In this document: piece by piece, positions 16,653-35,431 of the stretch | How positions within the stretch are numbered: the stretch's first letter is position 1 | Layout: every line of letters begins with the position of its first letter | Assembly (NCBI RefSeq): GCF_018499875.1 | Contig: NZ_JAHBAY010000003.1 | Location: 1 to 64,000 of the forward strand | Reading direction: 5' to 3' | Source: Kineosporia corallincola | GTDB lineage: Bacteria; Actinomycetota; Actinomycetes; Actinomycetales; Kineosporiaceae | Length of the DNA: 64,000 nucleotides | Made by a program: the position numbers and the translations under genes | Notes under the pieces: model-generated | What the model saw: only the letters and a program-made list of their open reading frames with translations | Database searches by the model: none | Told to the model about the DNA's origin: nothing

Positions 16653-17609
16653 TCACCCCGTGCCCTGGTAGGCCGCGCGGTAGGCGGAGGGGGTGAGGCC
16701 GGTGTCGCGGGCCAGATGGATCCGCAGGTTGGTGGCCGTGCCCAGGCCGCAGCGGGTGGCGATGCTGCCCACCGGCAGGTCACTGGCCTCCAGCAGGCGC
16801 CGGGCCTCGGCCACCCGGTGCCGGGTGAGCCACTGCTGCGGCGTCATCCCGTTCTCCTGGAGGAACCGGCGGGAGAACGTGCGCACCGCGTAGCCGGAGT
16901 GCCGGGCCAGGTCGGCCACCGTCAGCGGCTCGGAGAGCCGCTCGGCGGCCCAGACACAGGTGGCGCTCAGCCCCTTGCCCTGCGGCGGCACCTGCCGGGC
17001 GATGAACTGGGCTTGACCACCGGCCCGGTGCGGCGCCACCACCAGGCGCCGGGCCACCCGTCCGGCCGCCTCGGAGCCGTGGTCGGAGCGCACCACGTGC
17101 AGGCACAGGTCGATGCCCGCGCACACGCCCGCGCTGGTCAGGATCTGGCCGTCGTCGATGTAGAGCACGTCCGGGTCGACCAGCACCTGCGGATAGCGGG
17201 CGGCCAGCTCGGCGGCGTCCTCCCAGTGTGTGGTGGCCGGGCGGCCGTCGAGCAGCCCGGCGGCGGCCAGGGCGAACGCCCCGGTGCACACCGACATGAT
17301 GCGGGCGCCCCGCGCGGCGGCCCGGCGCAGCGCGGCCAGGGTGCGCGGCGACGGCTCGTCCATCGGCTCGTAGCCGGGAACCACCACGGTGTCGGCCCGG
17401 TCCAGGGCCGACAGCCCGGCCTCGGCGTACAGCGGGCCGCCGGTGGTGGTGGGCACCGGGCCGCGGCGCTCGGCGCAGACGGTCAGCCGGTACCGGTCGG
17501 CCTCGTCGCGGTGGCCGAAGATCTGCGCGGGGATGGCCAGGTCGAGCAGCACCACATCCGGGACGGCCAGCACCACGACCTGATGGATGGCCGGATTCTT
17601 TCGCACCAT
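16653..17609 (-). CDS. GlxA-type AraC regulator with DJ-1/PfpI domain
   Basis: A 318-residue regulator. Residues 10-190 form a class I glutamine-amidotransferase-like (DJ-1/PfpI) domain with VVVPGYEP, the elbow MSVCTGAFALAAAG and AGVCAGIDL. Residues about 215-318 hold two helix-turn-helix motifs of the AraC type (LTVADLARHSGYAVRTFSRRF and VGSIATRCGLGTATNLRIH). It is divergent from the MFS exporter gene, with 84 bp between, and so is the most plausible local controller of that exporter. The ligand-sensing domain is not expected to be an active amidotransferase. Confidence 0.88.
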   Translation of the reverse strand: MVRKNPAIHQVVVLAVPDVVLLDLAIPAQIFGHRDEADRYRLTVCAERRGPVPTTTGGPLYAEAGLSALDRADTVVVPGYEPMDEPSPRTLAALRRAAARGARIMSVCTGAFALAAAGLLDGRPATTHWEDAAELAARYPQVLVDPDVLYIDDGQILTSAGVCAGIDLCLHVVRSDHGSEAAGRVARRLVVAPHRAGGQAQFIARQVPPQGKGLSATCVWAAERLSEPLTVADLARHSGYAVRTFSRRFLQENGMTPQQWLTRHRVAEARRLLEASDLPVGSIATRCGLGTATNLRIHLARDTGLTPSAYRAAYQGTG

Positions 17610-17693
17610 GGCAGTCCAGCCTATCCATTCGGGCCGTTCGCCGCCGCAAGACTGGGCCGGTAGAGCACCGGACGCGGGAAAAGAGGCGATGGC

Positions 17694-19073
17694 ATGGCGG
17701 GCGAATCAGCCGGACCGGCCGGGCAGATCGGGCAGGTCGGGACGGGCGACGCGGACGGCGGAAGGCGCTGGGCCGCGCTGCTCTTCGCGGCCACCCTGGC
17801 GTTCGTCCTGTCGCTGGCCGGGTCGGCGCTGAAGAGCACGGTCACCGTGTATCTGCCCGACATCGCCCGCGACATCCACACCACGGTCGAGGGGTTCGCC
17901 TGGTCCACCACGATCTTCGCGGTCGGCATCGCGGTGGCCAGCCCGCTGGTCGGGCTGCTGGCCGACCGCTGGGGCGGCTCCACCGCCCTGACCGTGGGCA
18001 CCGTGCTGGCCGGAGTGGCCTTCCTGCTCTGCGCGGCGGCCCCGGGGGTGCTCCAGTTCGCCCCGGTGTACGGCGTTCTCGGCTCGGTCGCGTTCACCAT
18101 GCTGTCCTACGTGCCACTGGGCAAACTCGCCGACGAGCTGTTCGCCGGGCGGGGTGAGGGCCTGGCCTACGCCGCCATGACCAACGGCCCGGCCGTGGGT
18201 TTCATCGTGCTGGTTCCGCTGTGGGTGTGGGTCGGCTCGCTGCTGTCGTGGCGCACGGTGTTCCTGCTGGTCGGGGTGGTCATGCTGGTGGCCCTGGCCC
18301 CGCTGGCCGTGCTGCTGGGCCGGTTGTCGGCCGGTGACGAGCCGGCCGCCCCCAGCACGCCGCAGTCCCGGCAGGGCACCGGCAGCCGGTTGCGCACGCT
18401 GCTCACCGACCGCGACTACGTGATGGTCACCCTGGCCTTCGGCGGGTGCGGCATCACCATGGCCTTCGTCGACGTGCACCTGGTGAACCACCTGAACCAC
18501 GAGGGCATGTCCGGCGGCGTGGTCAGCGGAACCCTCTCTCTGCTGGGCCTGTTCGAGCTGATGGGCGGCCTGGTGGCCGGGCGGCTGTGCGACCGCGGCC
18601 TGATCCGTTCCACCCTGGTCACCGGCTACGCGTTGCGGGCGCTGGCCATGCTGGTGCTGCTGGTGGTTCCCGGCGCCAGTTCGGCCTTCGGTTTCGGCGT
18701 GGTGTTCGGCGCCAGTTACATGGTCACCGTGGTGGCCACCACGCTGTGGATCGGCCGCCTGCTGCCCACCGGCGTCAAGGCCACCGGGCTGGGCGTGCTG
18801 TGGCTGGTGCACCAGATCGGCGCGGCGCTGAGCAGCCAGGTCGGCGCCTACATCGAGCAGCGGGCCGACTCGTACGGACCGGTGGTGCTCACCGAGTCCG
18901 CCCTCGTGGTGCTCTCTGCGCTGCTCGTGCTCCAGTTGCCGGCCCCCGGACCTCCCGGGTCACGCAACGGCACCCCCGAAACGGCCTCGCCGGAACCCTC
19001 CCGGCCGGTTCCCCCCGAGCCGGCCTCCGAGGCTTCCGGCACTTCCGACGACGACGCCGTGCAGCGCTCGTGA
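17694..19073 (+). CDS. MFS transporter, probable exporter of the adjacent pathway
   Basis: A 459-residue major facilitator protein starting at ATG 17694 behind AAGAGG. About twelve membrane segments lie between residues 25 and 415. The MFS signature appears after helix two as VGLLADRWGGSTALTVG, and DVHLVNHLNHEGMS lies in the middle. The last 50 residues are a hydrophilic Pro/Glu/Ser tail. It is convergent with the M20 gene, stops 7 bp apart, so it faces the operon 25315-19081. Families of this size export small molecules; export of that operon's product is inferred from position. Confidence 0.82.
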   Translation: MAGESAGPAGQIGQVGTGDADGGRRWAALLFAATLAFVLSLAGSALKSTVTVYLPDIARDIHTTVEGFAWSTTIFAVGIAVASPLVGLLADRWGGSTALTVGTVLAGVAFLLCAAAPGVLQFAPVYGVLGSVAFTMLSYVPLGKLADELFAGRGEGLAYAAMTNGPAVGFIVLVPLWVWVGSLLSWRTVFLLVGVVMLVALAPLAVLLGRLSAGDEPAAPSTPQSRQGTGSRLRTLLTDRDYVMVTLAFGGCGITMAFVDVHLVNHLNHEGMSGGVVSGTLSLLGLFELMGGLVAGRLCDRGLIRSTLVTGYALRALAMLVLLVVPGASSAFGFGVVFGASYMVTVVATTLWIGRLLPTGVKATGLGVLWLVHQIGAALSSQVGAYIEQRADSYGPVVLTESALVVLSALLVLQLPAPGPPGSRNGTPETASPEPSRPVPPEPASEASGTSDDDAVQRS

Positions 19074-19080
19074 GGAGGTG

Positions 19081-20649
19081 TCAGCTGGAGCGCAGGAACC
19101 GGTCCAGCACCCGCACCCCGAACTCCAGGGCGTCCACCGGCACCCGCTCGTTCACGCCGTGGAACATCGCGACGAAGTCCAGGCCCGCGGGCAGGCGCAA
19201 CGGCGAGAACCCGTAGCAGCGAAGCTCTCCCAGCCGGTAGAACGACTTGGCGTCGGTGCCGCCGCTGAGCGTGAACGGCACCGGATGGCCGGCCGGGTCC
19301 TCGGCCAGCAGGGCAGCCGCCATCGCACCCGGCAGCGCGGCGTCGTAGGGCGAGTCCAGGGTGACGTGGTCGAGCAGCATCTCGCGCACCACGTCGTCGC
19401 CGAGGATCTCGTCCACGGCCGCCAGGGCGCTCTCCCGCTCGCCGGGCAGGTAGCGCACGTCGATCGTGCCCTGCGCGCTGGGCGGCACGGTGTTGGCGCC
19501 GCTGCCCGCGCGCAGCGAGGTGGGGGTGAGCGTGGTGCGCAGCGTGGCCTCCAGCAGCCGGCCGAAGCCGCCGAGACCGGCCAGGTCGCGCTCCGGCTGC
19601 CGGGGGTCGAACGACTCACCGCGTCGCAGCCGGGCCAGGGTCTCCAGCAGCACCCGGGTCTGCGGACGCAGCGCCGCCGGAAACCGCCTCTCCCCCAGCC
19701 GGTTCATCACCCCGGACAGGCGGGTGACGGCGTTGTCGGGATTCACCAGCGACCCGTGCCCGGGAGTGCCGTCGGCGACGAGCCGTAGCCAGAGGGCACC
19801 CTTCTCGGCGGTCTGGATCGGGTACAGCCGCCCGCCCTCGGGCAGCGTCACACTGAAACCGCCCACCTCGCCGACCGCTTCGGTGCAGTCGGCCAGCAGG
19901 TCGCGGTGGTGGTCGACCAGGTACCGCGCCCCCAGATCACCCCCGGCCTCCTCGTCGGCGGTGAAAGCGAGGACGACGTCACGAGGCGGGACGTACCCCT
20001 CCCGGTGCCAGATCGCCACCACGGTCAGGAGCATGGCGATGGCGTTCTTCATGTCCACGGCGCCGCGCCCCCACACGCACCCGTCGCGGATCTCCCCGGC
20101 GAACGGGTGCACCTGCCACTCGGCCGGGTCGGCGGGCACCACGTCGAGGTGGCCGTGCATGAGCAGGGCGCCCCGCAGCGGGTCCGCCCCCGGGATCCGG
20201 GCCACCAGCGACGCCCGCCCCGGCTCGGACTCGAAGATCTCGGCACGCACCCCGACCTCGGCCAGTCGCGCGGCCACCCACTCGGCGGCGGGACGCTCGT
20301 CGCCCCCGGGAGTGGAGGTGTCGAACCGGATCAGAGTGCTGAGCACGTCGGCCACCGTGGGGACGCCTGCGGCACCAGTGCTTTCGGCCCCAGTTGCTTC
20401 GGCCCCAGTTGCTTCGGCACGGTCCGGCTCATCGCGGGTGACTGCGGCACGGCCTGGCTCGGCACGGCCCGGTTCGGCACGGCCCGGCTCGGCACGGCCC
20501 GGTTCGGCAAGGCCCGGCTCGGCGCGACCCGACACAGCGCGACCCGGTTCGCCACTACCTGGTTCGCCACGGCCCGGTTCGATGCGGGTCGATTCGGCGC
20601 GCCCCGGTTCGGATCCCCTGGGCGCGAGGGTGTCTTCGGTGGACGTCAT
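19081..20649 (-). CDS. M20-family metallopeptidase/deacylase with repeat-expanded N-terminus
   Basis: A 522-residue protein. Residues about 96-522 are a complete M20 (ArgE/DapE/aminoacylase) enzyme: HGHLDVVPAD (H167, D169), the bridging Asp in GAVDMKN (D199), the base pair E233/E234 in ADEEAGG, a dimerisation domain starting GTPGHGSL, and a last metal His in FHGVNERV. Residues 10-92 are an unusual hydrophilic extension made of the pentapeptide EPGRA and variants. ATG 20649 overlaps the stop of the MetZ-like gene as ATGA. It is the last gene of the six-gene operon. In that setting it may remove an N-acyl protecting group; general peptide or acyl-amino-acid hydrolysis is also possible. Confidence 0.85.
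   Translation of the reverse strand: MTSTEDTLAPRGSEPGRAESTRIEPGRGEPGSGEPGRAVSGRAEPGLAEPGRAEPGRAEPGRAEPGRAAVTRDEPDRAEATGAEATGAESTGAAGVPTVADVLSTLIRFDTSTPGGDERPAAEWVAARLAEVGVRAEIFESEPGRASLVARIPGADPLRGALLMHGHLDVVPADPAEWQVHPFAGEIRDGCVWGRGAVDMKNAIAMLLTVVAIWHREGYVPPRDVVLAFTADEEAGGDLGARYLVDHHRDLLADCTEAVGEVGGFSVTLPEGGRLYPIQTAEKGALWLRLVADGTPGHGSLVNPDNAVTRLSGVMNRLGERRFPAALRPQTRVLLETLARLRRGESFDPRQPERDLAGLGGFGRLLEATLRTTLTPTSLRAGSGANTVPPSAQGTIDVRYLPGERESALAAVDEILGDDVVREMLLDHVTLDSPYDAALPGAMAAALLAEDPAGHPVPFTLSGGTDAKSFYRLGELRCYGFSPLRLPAGLDFVAMFHGVNERVPVDALEFGVRVLDRFLRSS
20446..20610 (-). repeat. 15-bp tandem repeat, 11 units, in M20 5' end
   Basis: Eleven consecutive 15-bp units of the type GGCACGGCCCGGTTC on the plus strand, encoding EPGRA in the minus-strand gene. 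A second short run based on GGCCCCAGTTGCTTC follows at 20386-20415 (ATGAE). Third-position changes between units show that the array is not recent in all parts. Confidence 0.9.
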
Positions 20650-22106
20650 CGGGCGGCCCCGGTCCTGTCGACGGCACGGTCACCGGCACGGTCACCGGCA
20701 CGCTCACCGTCTCGATCGTCAGCCCGGTCGTCAGCCCGGTCGTCAGCCCGCCCGCCGGCCCGAACGTCGACCAAGTCGTCAGCCACGTCGTCAGCCACGT
20801 CGCCAGCCACGTCGCCAGCCACGTCGCCAGCCACGTCGCCAGCCACGTTGTCAGCCACGTCGTCAGCCCGCCCGCCGGCCAGATCGTCGGCTCGGTCACC
20901 GAAGCCGGCCCCGGCGCGCTCGCTGCCCCCGACGTCCCGACGTGCCGCGCCGAGGGCCTGGGCCAGGTCTTCGATCAGGTCGGCCGGATCCTCGATGCCG
21001 ATCGACAACCGCACCAGGTCGGGCCGGATGCCCGCGGAGCGGCGCTGCTCGTCGGTCAGCCGGCCGTGGGTGGTGCTGGCCGGGTGTGTGGCCATGGTCT
21101 TGGTGTCGCCGATGTTGGTGGTGTTCGAGATCAGTTTCAGGTGATCGATGAACGACCAGGCCCCGGCCCGGCCACCGGGAACGGTGAAGCTCAGCAACCC
21201 GCCCGGCCCGCTCTGCTGGCGGGCGATCAGCGCGGCCTGCGGATGGTCGTCACGGCCGGGGAAGTGCACGGCCTCCACGTCGTCCTGAGTTGTGAGCCAG
21301 TCACTGACCGCACCCGCCACCTCGCCGTGCGCCCGCATCCGCAGGGGAAGGGTCTCCAGGCTCTTCGTCAGCAGCCAGGCGTTGAACGGGCTCAGGCTGG
21401 GGCCGGCGGTGCGCAGCACTCCGCGCACCGCCTCGACCAGCGGCGCGGCACCGACCACCGCGCCGCCGCCGCATCGGCCCTGGCCGTCGAGGTACTTGCC
21501 GGCCGAGTGGAGTACCAGGTCGGCGCCGAGCGCGAGCGGCTGTTGCAGAACCGGTGTGCAGAGCGTGTTGTCGACCAGGAACAGGGCTCCGTGGGCGTGG
21601 CTGAGCCCGGCCAGGAACCGCAGGTCGGCCACCCGCATCACCGGATTGGTCGGGCTCTCGACCACCACCATCCGGGTGGCCGGGCCGATGGCGGCGGCCC
21701 AGCGATCGTTGTCGTCGACCGGCAGGATCGTGGTGGTGACGCCGAACTTGCTCAGGTAGTGCTGGTACAGCCGGGTGGTGGTGCCGAACACCCCCTCGGC
21801 CAGCAGCACATGGTCGCCCGCCTCCAGCAGCGCCATCGAGACCGCCGTGTAGGCGGCCATCCCGGAGCCGGTGGCGACCGCGTCGTCGCCACCCTCCAGG
21901 GCCGCGAGCCGCTCCTCGAACCCGCGCACGGTGGGGTTGGTGAACCGCACGTACACGTTGCCCGCACGCCGCCCGGCGAACTTCTCGGCCGCGTCGTGGG
22001 CGTCGTCGAAGAGATAGCTGGAGGTGAGGACGAGAGCCTCGCTGTGCTGGTCCGCCGTGGGCTGTCGCTGCCCGGCCCGGACGGCGGCCGTCGCGAGCCC
22101 GGTCAT
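20646..22106 (-). CDS. MetZ-like (O-acylhomoserine sulfhydrylase/CGS family) PLP enzyme
   Basis: A 486-residue trans-sulfuration-family enzyme. Core residues 1-395 show SSYLFDDAHDAAEKFAG, TNPTVRGFEERLAALEGG, ATGSGMAA, VESPTNPVMRVADL and the PLP-binding HSAGKYLDGQGR with K204. The DGQGR ending is the MetZ (O-succinylhomoserine sulfhydrylase) type, while Gly replaces the usual Thr just before the lysine. Such enzymes carry out gamma-replacement or gamma-elimination on O-acylated homoserine. Residues 396-486 are a repetitive Asp/Ala/Arg tail absent from normal MetZ. It overlaps its neighbours on both sides by 4 bp. With the MetA-like gene upstream it could make methionine precursors, but the rest of the operon argues for a dedicated non-protein amino acid. 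Confidence 0.85.
   Translation of the reverse strand: MTGLATAAVRAGQRQPTADQHSEALVLTSSYLFDDAHDAAEKFAGRRAGNVYVRFTNPTVRGFEERLAALEGGDDAVATGSGMAAYTAVSMALLEAGDHVLLAEGVFGTTTRLYQHYLSKFGVTTTILPVDDNDRWAAAIGPATRMVVVESPTNPVMRVADLRFLAGLSHAHGALFLVDNTLCTPVLQQPLALGADLVLHSAGKYLDGQGRCGGGAVVGAAPLVEAVRGVLRTAGPSLSPFNAWLLTKSLETLPLRMRAHGEVAGAVSDWLTTQDDVEAVHFPGRDDHPQAALIARQQSGPGGLLSFTVPGGRAGAWSFIDHLKLISNTTNIGDTKTMATHPASTTHGRLTDEQRRSAGIRPDLVRLSIGIEDPADLIEDLAQALGAARRDVGGSERAGAGFGDRADDLAGGRADDVADNVAGDVAGDVAGDVAGDVADDVADDLVDVRAGGRADDRADDRADDRDGERAGDRAGDRAVDRTGAAR
20785..20868 (-). repeat. 12-bp tandem repeat, 7 units, in metZ-like 3' end
   Basis: Seven units of ACGTCGCCAGCC or one-base variants in perfect register, encoding GDVA/DDVA in the minus-strand gene. 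Related 12-bp units (CGGTCGTCAGCC) continue at 20722-20756. Confidence 0.9.
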
Positions 22107-22825
22107 CGCGGCAGCAGCCGCCCGGCCAGGTACTCCTGGTGGATGCCCTCGTACATGGCGTAGAACAGCTCACAGGTGTGCGAGACCGCGTAAAGGGCCT
22201 CCTGCTGCGTCTTCTCGGTGGTGCACAGGTCGGTGACCAGGTCGAGGCCCTGCTGGGTGTGCCCGACGTCCTCCTTCTGGTGCACCGAGAAGAACAGCAG
22301 GTCTTTCGGGGTCAGCCCGTAGACCCGCTCGAACAGCACGTCGCGCGACTCCGAGCCCAGCGTCTCCAGGTTCTGCCCCTCGCTGGCGATGGTGACGGCC
22401 GCGGCACCCACGTGGTAGCGCGCCGGGTCCTTCACCGCCTGCATGCGGTAGTCGATGAGCTCCTGGGTGGCGGGCAGGGCGACCGCGGCGTCACGCTGCT
22501 CGTCGTCGATGCCCAGGGCCAGCAGGAAGTCCTGCATCAGTTTGACGTGGTTCTTGGTCTTGGAGATGAACCCGGTCTCTTCCTCGTACATGTTGTGCAG
22601 GAGGCGGCGACGGTGCCGGGGCAGCGGGCAGAAGAACCAGAGGTTCTCGATGTACTCCAGAAAGTTCTTGGTGAGCTGGTACCCCTGGAGCGCGACCTGC
22701 TGGAGGAACTCGGGTTTCGGGTCGTCCTGGTCGAGCAGCAGGGCGAACACCGGGTGCGAGATGGTCAGGTGCGAGTGCAGGGTGCGTTCCAGCTCGTCAC
22801 GGAAGTCGGGCTTGCTGAGCAACAT
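22103..22825 (-). CDS. Haem-oxygenase-like di-iron oxidase (HDO family)
   Basis: A 240-residue all-helical protein of the TenA/PqqC/HDO superfamily. The complete HDO metal-ligand pattern is visible: E83 with H93 ten residues on (EEETGF...KNH), E149 in ASEGQN, and H182-x3-D186-x2-H189 in HQKEDVGH. Known HDOs use O2 for N-oxygenation (SznF), or oxidative C-C cleavage or desaturation (BesC, UndA); BesC cleaves lysine derivatives to allylglycines. The gene overlaps the MetZ-like gene by 4 bp and follows the GNAT gene by 15 bp. Its substrate is unknown, but the context points to an amino acid. An adventitious thiaminase-like TenA is unlikely because TenA lacks this ligand set. Confidence 0.82.
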   Translation of the reverse strand: MLLSKPDFRDELERTLHSHLTISHPVFALLLDQDDPKPEFLQQVALQGYQLTKNFLEYIENLWFFCPLPRHRRRLLHNMYEEETGFISKTKNHVKLMQDFLLALGIDDEQRDAAVALPATQELIDYRMQAVKDPARYHVGAAAVTIASEGQNLETLGSESRDVLFERVYGLTPKDLLFFSVHQKEDVGHTQQGLDLVTDLCTTEKTQQEALYAVSHTCELFYAMYEGIHQEYLAGRLLPR

Positions 22826-22840
22826 TTCGTCATCCTCCGG

Positions 22841-23437
22841 TCATGGGGTGTCTGCGGTCTGACGCCTGCGCCCGATCCGGGTGCGGGTGTTTCGGAGCAG
22901 GTCGGGCACGGTGACGGTCATGAAGTGGCCGCGGTGCCGGGCGCCGCCGTAGCGGCTGTAGTCGTCGAGCACGCCGAACGTCTCGAAACCCAGCCCGCGC
23001 CAGACCCGGTGGGCGTGGGAGTGCTCGCGCACGTCGATCTGGATCCGCTCGACGCCGATCCAGGTGAGTCGCTCGGCCACCGCGAGCGCCAGTTCCAGCA
23101 CCGCGCCCGAGCCCCGGGCCCGGGGCGCCAGATAGGCTTTGCTGACCTCGGCCAGGTGACGGCAGTTGGCCATGGCCGGGCGCCGCATCACGCACATCGC
23201 GAACACGCCCGAGTCGTCCTCCCCGAGCAGCACGTGGGTGGACCCGTCGCGCAGCCCGCGGGCCAGCTCGTCGGCGAACGCGTCGCCGTCCGCGTCGGTG
23301 ATCTCGTCGCCGTAGCCGAGGATGCCCTCGTCCTCGATGCTGGCGATCAGCATGGCCCGCAGCGAGACCCGGTGGGCGGTGAGGTCTTCCGGCCAGAACC
23401 AGCGGCGGGTGCCGATCGTCTCGGATGCCTCAGACAT
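22841..23437 (-). CDS. GNAT-family N-acetyltransferase
   Basis: A 198-residue acetyltransferase. The acetyl-CoA pyrophosphate loop is RARGSGAV, after the SKAYLAP beta-strand, and HAHRVWRGLGFETFGV is the usual C-terminal GNAT segment. It overlaps the upstream MetA-like gene by 8 bp and so is translationally coupled. In amino-acid antimetabolite clusters such enzymes N-acetylate the toxic product or an intermediate as self-protection, and a deacylase later removes the group. The M20 gene in the same operon fits that model. Substrate not determinable from sequence. Confidence 0.82.
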   Translation of the reverse strand: MSEASETIGTRRWFWPEDLTAHRVSLRAMLIASIEDEGILGYGDEITDADGDAFADELARGLRDGSTHVLLGEDDSGVFAMCVMRRPAMANCRHLAEVSKAYLAPRARGSGAVLELALAVAERLTWIGVERIQIDVREHSHAHRVWRGLGFETFGVLDDYSRYGGARHRGHFMTVTVPDLLRNTRTRIGRRRQTADTP

Positions 23438-24335
23438 GTGCCGTCTCCATCTTCCGGCCGGCCCAGCCCGCCAGCAGCCGGCGGCCCGGCCCCTGCCAGG
23501 CCAGGGCGAGCGAGGGGTCCATGGTCAGTTCCGGCAGCCGGACCGGTTCGCCGGCCCGGGCGAGCAGGGCGAGTTCACGCAGGCGCTGCTCCTGCTCGCC
23601 GGGCAGGTAGTTGACCGGGAGCGTGGGGTGGGCCACGATCTCACCCCGGACGAAACGCCCCACGTCGCGTACGTATTCGCGCAGCAGCGTGCCGGCGCCG
23701 TACTCCGGGTGGCCCTGCACGAACAGGTGCCCCTCGTCGTCGTGGGCCGCGCCCCAGTCGTCGGCGCCGGTGGCCAGCAGGGTGTGCACGCCGGCGGCGT
23801 CGAGGTCGTGCCGCCGCACAGTGTGCCAGCGCGAGTGCGGCATCATCACCGGCCCCGGGAACAGGGCCCGGCCCAGCGGTGACGCCCCCACCACGAGATG
23901 ACTGAGCACGCCCATGCGTTTCTCCGCCAGCCGCACCCGTGGAACCGCGTGCAGGTGGGCCAGCGCCGAGTGCGCGGACAGGCAGGAGAAGAGCACGGGC
24001 AGGTCGCCCGTCCGGTCGAGGATGCGGCCGATCAGCGAGTGCACCGGATCCCGGGTCAGGTCGGGCCCCCGGGGCTCGGCCCCGCTCACGATGAGCCCCC
24101 GTAGCGTGCCGATCCACGCCGCCACCGCGGGCGGCAGCGTGCCGGGCCGGGGCCCGGCGTGCGGGTCGAGGTTGACCACGCGCTCGTGGGCCTCGTGCAC
24201 CAGGCACGGGGCGTGCGCCGGTTCGCCGAGCAGGCGCGTCCAGTGGCTGCGTGGTCGGCCGGCCACCGGTTTCGTCATCAGATCGAGGACGCCGACGGCG
24301 GGCTCGCACCCGCCGCCGGGCCACGGGTTGACCAT
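23430..24335 (-). CDS. MetA-like homoserine O-acyltransferase homologue
   Basis: A 301-residue protein of the homoserine O-succinyltransferase (MetA/HTS) family, a class I glutamine-amidotransferase-like fold. The N-terminal VGVLDLMTKP corresponds to the MetA LNLMPxK motif, and GLIVSGAEPRG and FSCLSAHSAL with nucleophile C118 follow. MPHSRWHT and VQGHPEYG carry H209 and E211; their spacing from C118 is close to that in E. coli MetA. The sequence is quite divergent (the usual ICWGAQA elbow is replaced), so the acceptor may be a modified homoserine. It would put an acyl leaving group on a gamma-hydroxyl for the MetZ-like enzyme. ATG 24335 follows a purine-rich GGGGGGAG site. Confidence 0.78.
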   Translation of the reverse strand: MVNPWPGGGCEPAVGVLDLMTKPVAGRPRSHWTRLLGEPAHAPCLVHEAHERVVNLDPHAGPRPGTLPPAVAAWIGTLRGLIVSGAEPRGPDLTRDPVHSLIGRILDRTGDLPVLFSCLSAHSALAHLHAVPRVRLAEKRMGVLSHLVVGASPLGRALFPGPVMMPHSRWHTVRRHDLDAAGVHTLLATGADDWGAAHDDEGHLFVQGHPEYGAGTLLREYVRDVGRFVRGEIVAHPTLPVNYLPGEQEQRLRELALLARAGEPVRLPELTMDPSLALAWQGPGRRLLAGWAGRKMETAHV

Positions 24336-24355
24336 TTTCTCCCCCCGGGCCTTTT

Positions 24356-25315
24356 TCAGTTCAGATATTTATTCTTCCCGTACCGGTCCTGGCCACTGAG
24401 CATCACATTCGCGTGCTTCGTGATGTCGTGGTCATTGCCGTCGATCATTTCTCCCCAGGCCTGGTGAGGATAGACCTCGACCTGCGGAACCGTGATCCGG
24501 AAATTGATGGCCAGACGGCGATCGCCCTCGGTGGTGTTGGCCAGCGAGGAATGCATCACCCGGTCGGTGAAGATGATGAACTGGCCGGCCTTCAGCTCGA
24601 TGGTGCGTACCTCGACGCCCTCTTCTTCCGGGTCGAAGATGGTGACGCAGGCGAAGCGCTGGTCGAGCTCGGCCAGCCGCTGCGTGTCACCGGCCCGGCC
24701 CAGGTTGTCTTTGAAGACGTTGCCGAAGATCGAGTCGCTCAGCGGCACCCGGCGCACCGGGTACTGCTTGTTGTGGGTGCCGACGGCGATCTGCATGGCC
24801 CCGTTCGCCTCGGTCACGTCGTCGAGCGCGATCCACGCGGAGAGGTTGAACAGGTCGGTGTACACCTCGTACTCCGGCGGCGGGGCCAGGGCCGGCCGGA
24901 AGATGCCGTACTCCTCACCGGCGAAAAGGCTTGACTGGTGCCAGGCGAGCGCACCGTCGCCGGGTGCCTTGTGGAAGATCGACGACCGCCAGACCAGGAG
25001 GTTCTCACCCAGCAGCGACTGCACCCGGTTCAGCAACTGGGGCCGGTAGGCCATGGTGAGCAGGTTCTTGTAGTGCAGGTGCCAGTCGCGGTGCGTGGTG
25101 CGGTCGTAGATCGGGGACGTCAGCCCACCACCGACGATGTTCTGGAAGGTGGGCCTGATCGCCGCCAGGGCCTCGGCGTCGAGCAGGTCGAAGGGACCGA
25201 GATATCCCTCCGCATGAAATCGATCAATTTCTTCCGGCGAAAGCCGAAAACCCGTGCCAGGGTTTTTTGTCGCGCCTTCACTGGGTGATTCGGTATCCGT
25301 GTCGAATGACGTCAT
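24356..25315 (-). CDS. SyrB2-like Fe(II)/2-oxoglutarate enzyme with HQS metal motif
   Basis: A 319-residue PhyH-superfamily enzyme starting at ATG 25315. It tracks the carrier-dependent chlorinase SyrB2 along its length: EGYLGPFD (36-43), IYDR (69), LVWRSSIFHKAPGDG, AWHQSSLFA (124-132), EANGAMQIAVGTH (169-181), KAGQFIIF (242) and MHSSLANT with the second His, H255. R273 is the likely 2-oxoglutarate anchor. SyrB2 has HQA, leaving an iron site for chloride, whereas hydroxylases have HxD/E. Here the sequence is H126-Q127-S128, so the carboxylate is absent. That predicts halogenation or another non-hydroxylating outcome, though Ser is not a standard halogenase residue. No carrier protein or NRPS is nearby, so a free or acylated amino acid is the likely substrate. 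First gene of the operon; G+C is lower than its neighbours. Confidence 0.83.
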   Translation of the reverse strand: MTSFDTDTESPSEGATKNPGTGFRLSPEEIDRFHAEGYLGPFDLLDAEALAAIRPTFQNIVGGGLTSPIYDRTTHRDWHLHYKNLLTMAYRPQLLNRVQSLLGENLLVWRSSIFHKAPGDGALAWHQSSLFAGEEYGIFRPALAPPPEYEVYTDLFNLSAWIALDDVTEANGAMQIAVGTHNKQYPVRRVPLSDSIFGNVFKDNLGRAGDTQRLAELDQRFACVTIFDPEEEGVEVRTIELKAGQFIIFTDRVMHSSLANTTEGDRRLAINFRITVPQVEVYPHQAWGEMIDGNDHDITKHANVMLSGQDRYGKNKYLN

Positions 25316-25422: not shown

Positions 25423-25492
25423 ATTTACTGACACCATTTGACGGTGCCATGAATAGGCGTCAGTAAATTTTTTTACCGTACTTTCACGTCAA
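25423..25492 (-). promoter_or_regulatory. Putative promoter/operator region of the biosynthetic operon
   Basis: A perfect 10-bp inverted repeat, ATTTACTGAC (25423-25432) and GTCAGTAAAT (25459-25468), is separated by 26 bp. On the minus strand TTGACG at 25492-25487 could be a -35 box ahead of an A/T-rich run. The 180-bp gap 25316-25495 is distinctly AT-rich for this genome. Exact promoter boxes are uncertain. Confidence 0.45.

Positions 25493-29956: not shown

Positions 29957-35431
<5,475 letters not shown>

Follow-up and report, generated by a model that had tools for sequence, protein, structure and literature searches.

A sporadically distributed gene cluster of Kineosporia corallincola, with a paired acetyltransferase and haem-oxygenase-like oxidase at its core, as a candidate pathway to a modified amino acid

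The stretch of DNA analysed here (the window) comprises the first 64,000 nucleotides of contig NZ_JAHBAY010000003.1 (C3) of Kineosporia corallincola (assembly GCF_018499875.1). It contains a compact gene cluster that, taken as a whole and judged from its sequence, probably serves to make and export a small free modified (non-protein) amino acid, probably an antimetabolite. The family to which the cluster belongs is distributed sporadically; as far as sequence comparison reaches, its core recurs in distantly related bacteria, a sign of natural-product pathways of a family yet to be explored. An earlier, sequence-only reading had described six tightly packed genes on the minus strand, and the open reading frames (ORFs) with their Pfam and NCBIfam matches bear out both the families that it named and their order. 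The features are as follows, with HDO standing for haem-oxygenase-like di-iron oxidase, Fe/2OG for iron- and 2-oxoglutarate-dependent, PLP for pyridoxal phosphate and MFS for major facilitator superfamily:

16653..17609, minus strand: AraC/DJ-1 (FtrA/GlxA-type) regulator (HTH_18 and DJ-1_PfpI; FtrA model 340 bits, cut-off 425)
17694..19073, plus strand: MFS transporter, probably an exporter by sequence (MFS_1, 103 bits; relatives in 26 of 35 loci)
19081..20649, minus strand: M20 metallo-deacylase, the likely remover of an N-acyl group (Peptidase_M20, 100.6 bits; PRK07906, 590 bits)
20646..22106, minus strand: dedicated MetZ-type PLP enzyme for gamma-replacement, its C-terminal tail rich in repeats (NF006003; in a clade of its own)
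22103..22825, minus strand: HDO (Haem_oxygenas_2, PF14518, 80.9 bits)
22841..23437, minus strand: GNAT amino-acid N-acetyltransferase of the tabtoxin-resistance type (family alignment and model fold)
23430..24335, minus strand: MetA/HTS-family homoserine O-acyltransferase-like enzyme (PF04204, 89.9 bits)
24356..25315, minus strand: Fe/2OG enzyme, PhyH-type and SyrB2/CytC3-like, with HxS in place of HxA/HxD (TIGR01762, CytC3 match, HQS motif)
25423..25468, no strand assigned: 22-nt imperfect inverted repeat upstream of the operon, weakly suggestive of an operator or leader hairpin

In order of transcription, from the Fe/2OG enzyme to the M20 deacylase, the six genes are spaced by 20, −8, 15, −4 and −4 bases. 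The MFS gene is convergent with the operon, as had been read, and divergent from the gene for the AraC/DJ-1 regulator, which the earlier reading did not count. Because relatives of the MFS and AraC/DJ-1 genes recur in related clusters, the cluster is, on sequence grounds, best taken as 16653–25315.

The distribution of related clusters was established by a scan of the whole collection with two HDOs as query, that of the window and that of genome G606. The scan returned 35 loci (53–82% identity), a lower bound, as only loci with an exact match to either of two short peptide patterns could be found. Their hosts span Actinomycetota, Pseudomonadota, Myxococcota and Planctomycetota, with the MetZ type in the first two. 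A GNAT gene was present in 34 of the loci, an MFS gene in 26, a MetZ gene in 24, an AraC relative of at least 100 bits in 21 and a MetA-like gene in 3; GNAT, HDO and MetZ occurred together in 24. Since the core recurs in other phyla, the arrangement of genes in the window is, to judge from these sequences, more than chance. The frequencies of GNAT, MFS and MetZ, together with eight GNAT–HDO fusions and the single MetZ clade described below, argue for a dedicated amino-acid pathway. Supported, too, is what had been proposed from the window alone: acyl activation, PLP chemistry, oxidation by the HDO, N-acylation and its removal, and export.

Several individual clusters are informative. Kibdelosporangium persicum (L030) carries five of the six genes in the same order, without the M20 gene, and its MFS gene stands at the opposite end, beside the Fe/2OG gene. 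In Aliivibrio sp. S4MY1 (L036), GNAT-HDO-MFS-MetZ is accompanied by an Fe/2OG enzyme. Pseudomonas indoloxydans has a second complete GNAT-HDO-MFS-MetZ-AraC cluster, which lies directly downstream of genes for homoserine dehydrogenase and threonine synthase. A neighbourhood in G606 (L022), found through its 81% identical HDO in a sample of 394 genomes, is syntenic with the window; identities are 68% for AraC, 60% for MFS, 70% for MetZ, 56% for GNAT and 39% for MetA. The operon copy in L022 is degraded, with a transposase-like ORF (recognised by eye) about 0.7 kb past its Fe/2OG fragment; on the other side lie a methylphosphonate-hydroxylase-like gene (below cut-off) and a Phn-HD gene. As a negative control we used three distant HDOs (25–26% identity; L012, L013 and L028), and neither GNAT nor MetZ was found near them at 1e-3, L012 and L013 spanning only 3.7 kb; L028 has a 25% M20 match. 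Plasmid searches with the HDO and MetA gave no match at 1e-10.

The pairing of GNAT and HDO, which is conserved and sometimes takes the form of a fusion, had been overlooked in the sequence-only reading. The two are fused in one ORF in 8 loci, lie within 100 bases of each other or overlap in 23, and are farther apart in 3. Four of the fusions are in Photobacterium clusters with MetZ; the others, in Lysobacter, Rhodanobacter, Steroidobacter and Tahibacter, are without it. The window GNAT by itself scores below the Pfam cut-off (19.4 versus 20.7); all 27 members of the family alignment match Acetyltransf_1 at E ≤ 1, and the predicted structure has a GNAT fold. By profile and by structure its closest solved relative is the tabtoxin resistance protein, which, with the phosphinothricin acetyltransferases, is among its nearest kin in fold and sequence (about 20% identity); it differs from these in its association with an HDO, as a fusion or as a pair, within a pathway. 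The GNAT probably acetylates an amino acid. A Paraburkholderia relative (28–31% identity) stands beside ectB, a hint only. The GNAT–HDO fusions of L058, L059, L060 and L064 are accompanied by KAS III-like genes, and some of them also by genes of AMP-ligase, carrier-protein-like, nicotianamine-synthase-like (NAS-like), PLP decarboxylase or amidohydrolase type; this is a distinct, unexplored cluster type.

The HDO has a haem-oxygenase fold and exceeds the PF14518 cut-off. Residues H93, H182, H189, E149, D186 and E81/E82 (the last two within EEE) are invariant in 37 of 37 sequences, and the set of three histidine and three carboxylate ligands, a motif described in passages of PMC13108848, appears from the alignment to be present. 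Its closest relatives are the self-sacrificing p-aminobenzoate synthases: it reaches 85.2 bits with the CADD model (cut-off 200), and profile comparison gave E = 2e-22 for NePabS as against 0.015 for BesC. The cluster HDOs differ from these synthases at the position of Tyr27, the residue sacrificed in CADD, which is not Tyr in any of the 37 (F in 28, V in 7, L in 1, I in 1; F27 in the window). Opposite CADD Lys152 stands E159 (E in 28, Q in 5, D in 3, I in 1), where the alignment is gapped and less sure than at Tyr27.

The MetZ-type enzyme reaches 398.5 bits with Cys_Met_Meta_PP and 530.5 bits with the O-succinylhomoserine sulfhydrylase model NF006003 (cut-off 522); with TIGR01325 it scores 474.3 (cut-off 510.05). 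For a tree of 46 rows we added 15 MetZ-type proteins from outside the clusters, drawn from 14 of 24 host genomes searched (the L031 host not among them) and from the window genome. Rather than grouping with housekeeping MetZs, the 26 cluster MetZs and that of the second P. indoloxydans cluster formed one clade (support 98/93), and all 15 others fell outside it. Three positions distinguish the clade. Position 203, which immediately precedes the PLP lysine, is G in 25 and A in 2 of the 27 cluster enzymes and T in all 15 others; position 181 is T in 26 and S in 1, against C in 13 and V in 2; position 338 is M in all 27, against T in 12, M in 2 and a gap in 1. The window enzyme bears G203, T181 and M338. 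The HDOs tell a similar story, with the 27 from MetZ clusters on one side of a single branch (94/97; 92% of bootstrap trees). From these two trees, MetZ therefore appears to have been recruited once, or nearly so, and to have travelled with the GNAT–HDO pair.

The earlier reading had also missed the enzymes that stand in for MetZ elsewhere. Among the 11 loci without MetZ, five have an NAS-like enzyme (L041, L046, L053, L059, L060), two an SbnA-like enzyme (L056, L057) and four neither. PF03059 was over cut-off in the two NAS-like genes tested with it (L041, L046), and CntL was the best NCBIfam model in three tested (L041, L059, L060), at no more than 34 bits against a cut-off of 350; the assignment in L053 rests on similarity to the other NAS-like genes. 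The SbnA-like proteins belong to the PALP family, with SbnA as best model at 320 and 290 bits (cut-off 350). MetZ was never found in one locus with an NAS-like or SbnA-like enzyme, an exclusivity with a chance of 4.9e-5 if loci are independent. CntL, of the staphylopine pathway, transfers an aminobutyrate unit from S-adenosylmethionine (SAM) to an amino-acid nitrogen; SbnA, of the staphyloferrin B pathway, transfers an aminocarboxyethyl unit from activated serine, also to an amino-acid nitrogen; MetZ handles the same C4 unit as CntL, but takes it from O-acylhomoserine. Because all three families move such a unit, we infer that the clusters may share a step in which an aminocarboxyalkyl unit is attached to a nucleophile, and that in this step MetZ came to replace an NAS-like enzyme.

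Taking from the sequence the enzyme families, the packing of their genes, the association across two phyla of GNAT, HDO and MFS with a dedicated MetZ, and the GNAT–HDO fusions, we infer each reaction and their order as follows. The MetA-like enzyme would O-acylate homoserine, and MetZ would swap the acyl group for a nucleophile, of which an amine nitrogen is the likeliest, to give a 4-substituted 2-aminobutanoate. The GNAT would N-acetylate this amino acid, both for the chemistry and for self-protection. The HDO, with O2, would then oxidise the acetylated or free amino acid at or beside the new bond, by N-oxygenation, C–N or C–C cleavage, or desaturation. The Fe/2OG enzyme would functionalise a C–H bond, plausibly by chlorination; the M20 enzyme would take off the acetyl group; the product would leave through the MFS transporter, under the control of the AraC/DJ-1 regulator.

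A number of observations weigh against this pathway. The earlier reading had made conserved co-occurrence of all six genes a check on its proposal; the GNAT-HDO-MetZ association and the five genes of K. persicum answer to that expectation in part, while the complete set was found in none of the 35 other loci, nor in L022, where Fe/2OG (39 aa) and M20 (52 aa) survive only as fragments. An intact Fe/2OG gene is present in 2 of the 35 loci and missing from 33, and a window-like M20 gene is present in one (L040) and missing from 34. Four loci (L054, L058, L061 and L064, of which L058 starts at a contig end) have neither MetZ nor an NAS-like or SbnA-like enzyme, and the mutual exclusivity of those enzymes reflects few evolutionary events, the MetZ loci being one clade. 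The CoA-loop motif of the GNAT is degenerate in several members. Finally, a non-ribosomal peptide synthetase (NRPS) adjoins the K. persicum cluster, for which reason the amino acid may there be a peptide building block. That neighbourhood (L030/L130) includes, besides the NRPS with its two condensation domains and thioesterase, an AMP ligase, a DUF6002 protein and a protein nearest to the alpha subunit of sulfopyruvate decarboxylase (below cut-off). As to deacylases, the M20 relative of L040 is 31% identical and lies about 4 kb beyond its cluster; a different M20 subfamily adjoins the MFS gene in L054, and the M20 of L048 is 37% like that of L054.

Of the alternatives, the one that survives best is a pathway of the vinylglycine type, as for rhizobitoxine, aminoethoxyvinylglycine (AVG) and formylaminooxyvinylglycine (FVG), which the sequence-only reading had merged into its proposal. 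MetZ would couple the C4 unit to an oxygen or a nitrogen nucleophile, and desaturation at Cβ–Cγ would fall to the HDO; we keep it as the best rival and think it unlikely. The logic of rhizobitoxine is a MetZ-type gamma-replacement followed by desaturation, and the oxyvinylglycine pathways share with the window an acyl-homoserine, that replacement, an oxidase and a toxic free amino acid. The SbnA-type loci would yield a C3 unit with no gamma carbon to desaturate, and among the operon genes we recognised none for making hydroxylamine or serinol. Passages of PMC13185094 describe an HDO, MboA, that desaturates Cβ–Cγ of a peptide residue, and in passages of PMC10445470 AzsE, with a predicted C-terminal haem-oxygenase-like domain, is given as 27% identical to GvgC of the FVG pathway. 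The oxidase and accessory genes of the oxyvinylglycine pathways differ from those of the window. Passages of PMC8064604 give the gvg-like core as gvgA, B, C and F, name neither GNAT nor MetZ, and contain gene lists that lack the GNAT–HDO core.

We consider it improbable that the clusters make a small metallophore of the staphylopine or nicotianamine kind, exported by the MFS protein. The replacement of MetZ by NAS (CntL-like) and SbnA-like enzymes favours it, as does a gene of the Asp/Glu racemase family in L057, and the type of step, aminocarboxyalkyl unit to nucleophile, is that of CntL and SbnA. The relatives in the sister clusters are nonetheless below the curated cut-offs, no metallophore genes were recognised, and a metallophore route has no place for GNAT or HDO. 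No opine dehydrogenase or conserved uptake gene was recognised among the neighbours listed, for which no per-neighbour profile scan was made.

An equally small likelihood attaches to the idea that the clusters detoxify or break down an amino acid from the environment instead of making one. AraC/DJ-1 regulators such as this one often govern catabolic genes, and a GNAT like the tabtoxin resistance protein could be a resistance enzyme. Opposed to it are the MetA-like gene, which encodes an activating enzyme, and the presence, close to 7 of the HDO loci, of genes for an NRPS or an AMP ligase (their domains were checked in L030 and L056). The MFS protein is taken for an exporter only because of the family that it resembles.

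The Fe/2OG enzyme bears on the comparison that had been drawn with the bes pathway. This protein matches PhyH (81.8 bits) and scores 132.7 bits with TIGR01762, 'chlorinating enzyme', under the curated cut-off of 226.3; its nearest solved relatives are CytC3 (1e-28) and SyrB2 (3e-24). It is 73% identical to the Kibdelosporangium copy, 59% to that of Aliivibrio and about 30% to two CytC3-type paralogues; because of the first two, the gene is, by sequence, linked to the cluster across phyla. The metal-ligand motif, to which the earlier reading gave no attention, is HQS in all three intact cluster copies and HQA in the two paralogues. It is HQE in a relative from V. europaeus and FQD in one from V. 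tubiashii, both set aside as belonging to other clusters. In the alignment (VMHSS...RRLAINFR) the iron-binding carboxylate is absent and the distal His and Arg are kept. Passages of PMC12871659, PMC11186838 and PMC12171316 define the Fe/2OG halogenases by HxG/A, not HxD/E; the window enzyme, with Ser at the carboxylate position, does not have the halogenase motif. Since the enzyme shares the loss of the carboxylate with halogenases but lacks their HxG/A, we describe it as halogenase-like rather than as a halogenase.

Searches for further copies of this gene returned little. A pattern scan of 84,980 species genomes gave 44 matches and no relative, but missed the 73% identical K. persicum gene in the same collection, and the silence of such a scan is weak evidence of absence. 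Among 396 Actinomycetota genomes only the window's own gene was matched at 1e-35. Among 148 genomes, own included, two were matched at 1e-20, with only paralogues of 30–31% identity beyond the operon gene, which was absent from the five other genomes of the genus in that sample. None of the genome's 34 PF00550 matches (E ≤ 0.001) lies on contig C3, in agreement with the earlier statement that no carrier protein is present, and halogenation on a carrier encoded nearby was rejected on this ground. By contrast, one of the two HQA paralogues, a second CytC3/SyrB2-like gene of the genome (C17:124307-125191), is adjoined by a carrier-protein match (C17:125254-125439). The V. europaeus relative (34%; L005, plasmid pVEu) belongs to an NRPS cluster that also has genes of TauD-like, aminotransferase and Ldh type.

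In the bes cluster of Streptomyces cattleya, for beta-ethynylserine, an Fe/2OG chlorinase-type enzyme, an HDO, a PLP enzyme of the Cys/Met family and an exporter act together, and the window has members of the same superfamilies. A route of this kind, in which the Fe/2OG enzyme chlorinates an amino acid, the HDO cleaves it and PLP-dependent elimination yields an alkyne, is very improbable here. The HDO reaches 19.5 bits with the BesC model NF042919, against a cut-off of 500, and is nearer CADD than BesC; the Fe/2OG gene is optional in the family and its HxS differs from the halogenase motif; MetZ scores as an O-succinylhomoserine sulfhydrylase; the operon lacks an ATP-grasp ligase; and MetA, GNAT and M20 are extra to the bes set, with MetA and GNAT left unexplained. 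We rejected the bes-type alkyne route as core function on the BesC score, the HDO profile and the rarity of the Fe/2OG gene, and the bes comparison is not supported. Given that rarity, halogenation would be an add-on to the synthesis and export of a modified amino acid and not its core.

Housekeeping synthesis of methionine or p-aminobenzoate, to which MetA, MetZ and a CADD-family HDO might point, is already contradicted and carries almost no weight. The MetA-like protein exceeds the PF04204 cut-off of 27 and falls short of the NCBIfam MetA equivalog cut-offs (153.5 of 358, 64.7 of 495 and 62 of 460.5 bits). C118, H167, H209 and E211 are invariant in all five sequences, C118, H209 and E211 being catalytic residues in MetA. 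The operon gene is the genome's sole HTS match. Elsewhere on the contig, at C3:575487-577925, a MetX match of 426 bits stands beside a PF01053 gene, one of six full-length PF01053 genes in the genome, the operon's included; the match is under the curated cut-off of 500, which was also unreached in the 9 control genomes with a match. These genes and the separate MetZ clade bear out, by sequence, the expectation that the organism has methionine-type enzymes besides the operon's MetA and MetZ, and methionine housekeeping was rejected on them, as was p-aminobenzoate synthesis on the Tyr27 position and the CADD score. A MetA-like gene is present in all five actinobacterial MetZ loci (window, L022, L030, L031, L032) and in none of the 21 others; six hosts of the MetA-less MetZ clusters have a canonical-scoring MetA elsewhere, and the other hosts may use MetX. 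MetA-like neighbourhoods L023–L026 (family f22) were set aside, as they look like other systems; L024 and L025 hold another pair of MetA-like and Cys/Met PLP enzymes, in a different cluster.

Some features of the window and its relatives stand apart from these questions. The Fe/2OG gene has an alternative upstream ATG at 25450; the start at 25315, with a GGGGG/AGGG stretch immediately ahead of it, is preferred as it matches those of homologues. About 110 bases upstream of this start lies the inverted repeat, with ends ATTTACTGAC and GTCAGTAAAT; its core, TTTACTGAC, is unpaired in the other clusters compared, and a scan for promoters and terminators gave nothing above chance. Tandem repeats of 12 and 15 bp at 20370–20868 flank the 4-base MetZ/M20 overlap, those at 20672–20868 lying in the MetZ-type gene; they encode the acidic, low-complexity C-terminal tail of MetZ and the repetitive N-terminus of M20. 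A single ORF of 1824 aa (29957–35431) appears by eye to be a fused biotin carboxylase, biotin carrier and carboxyltransferase. In the Streptomyces loci L031 and L032, at about 5.5–8.6 kb, there are a gene of the DIT1/PvcA type (isocyanide synthase family; 63.7 bits in L031, the L032 copy 83% identical) and, beside it, a protein of 482–509 aa whose L031 copy has no family match.

Within a known kind of system, the HDO-based amino-acid pathway, the cluster stands out by a core pair and a donor logic that are both new. We found no description of it in the open-access literature searched, most subscription papers being outside its reach. According to passages of PMC13108848, no more than about a dozen HDOs had had their function validated by early 2026, and none of those named there is from this cluster type. 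A broader reading, held tentatively and more readily doubted than accepted, is that GNAT and HDO, fused or paired, form a new 'acetylate and oxidise' module served by three interchangeable, unrelated donors (SAM with an NAS-like enzyme, O-acylhomoserine with a neofunctionalised MetZ, and activated serine with an SbnA-like enzyme) that leads to oxidised amino-acid antimetabolites of a new class, with Fe/2OG halogenases of a hitherto unrecognised HxS type, able to act without a carrier, added in three lineages. The pathway is small and has no carrier nearby in the window, and the fusions show which of its enzymes cooperate. Its MetZ has an altered active site, and motif filters for HxG/A would miss an Fe/2OG enzyme such as this one. 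The product may be a new amino-acid antimetabolite, made together with its own protective acetyltransferase.

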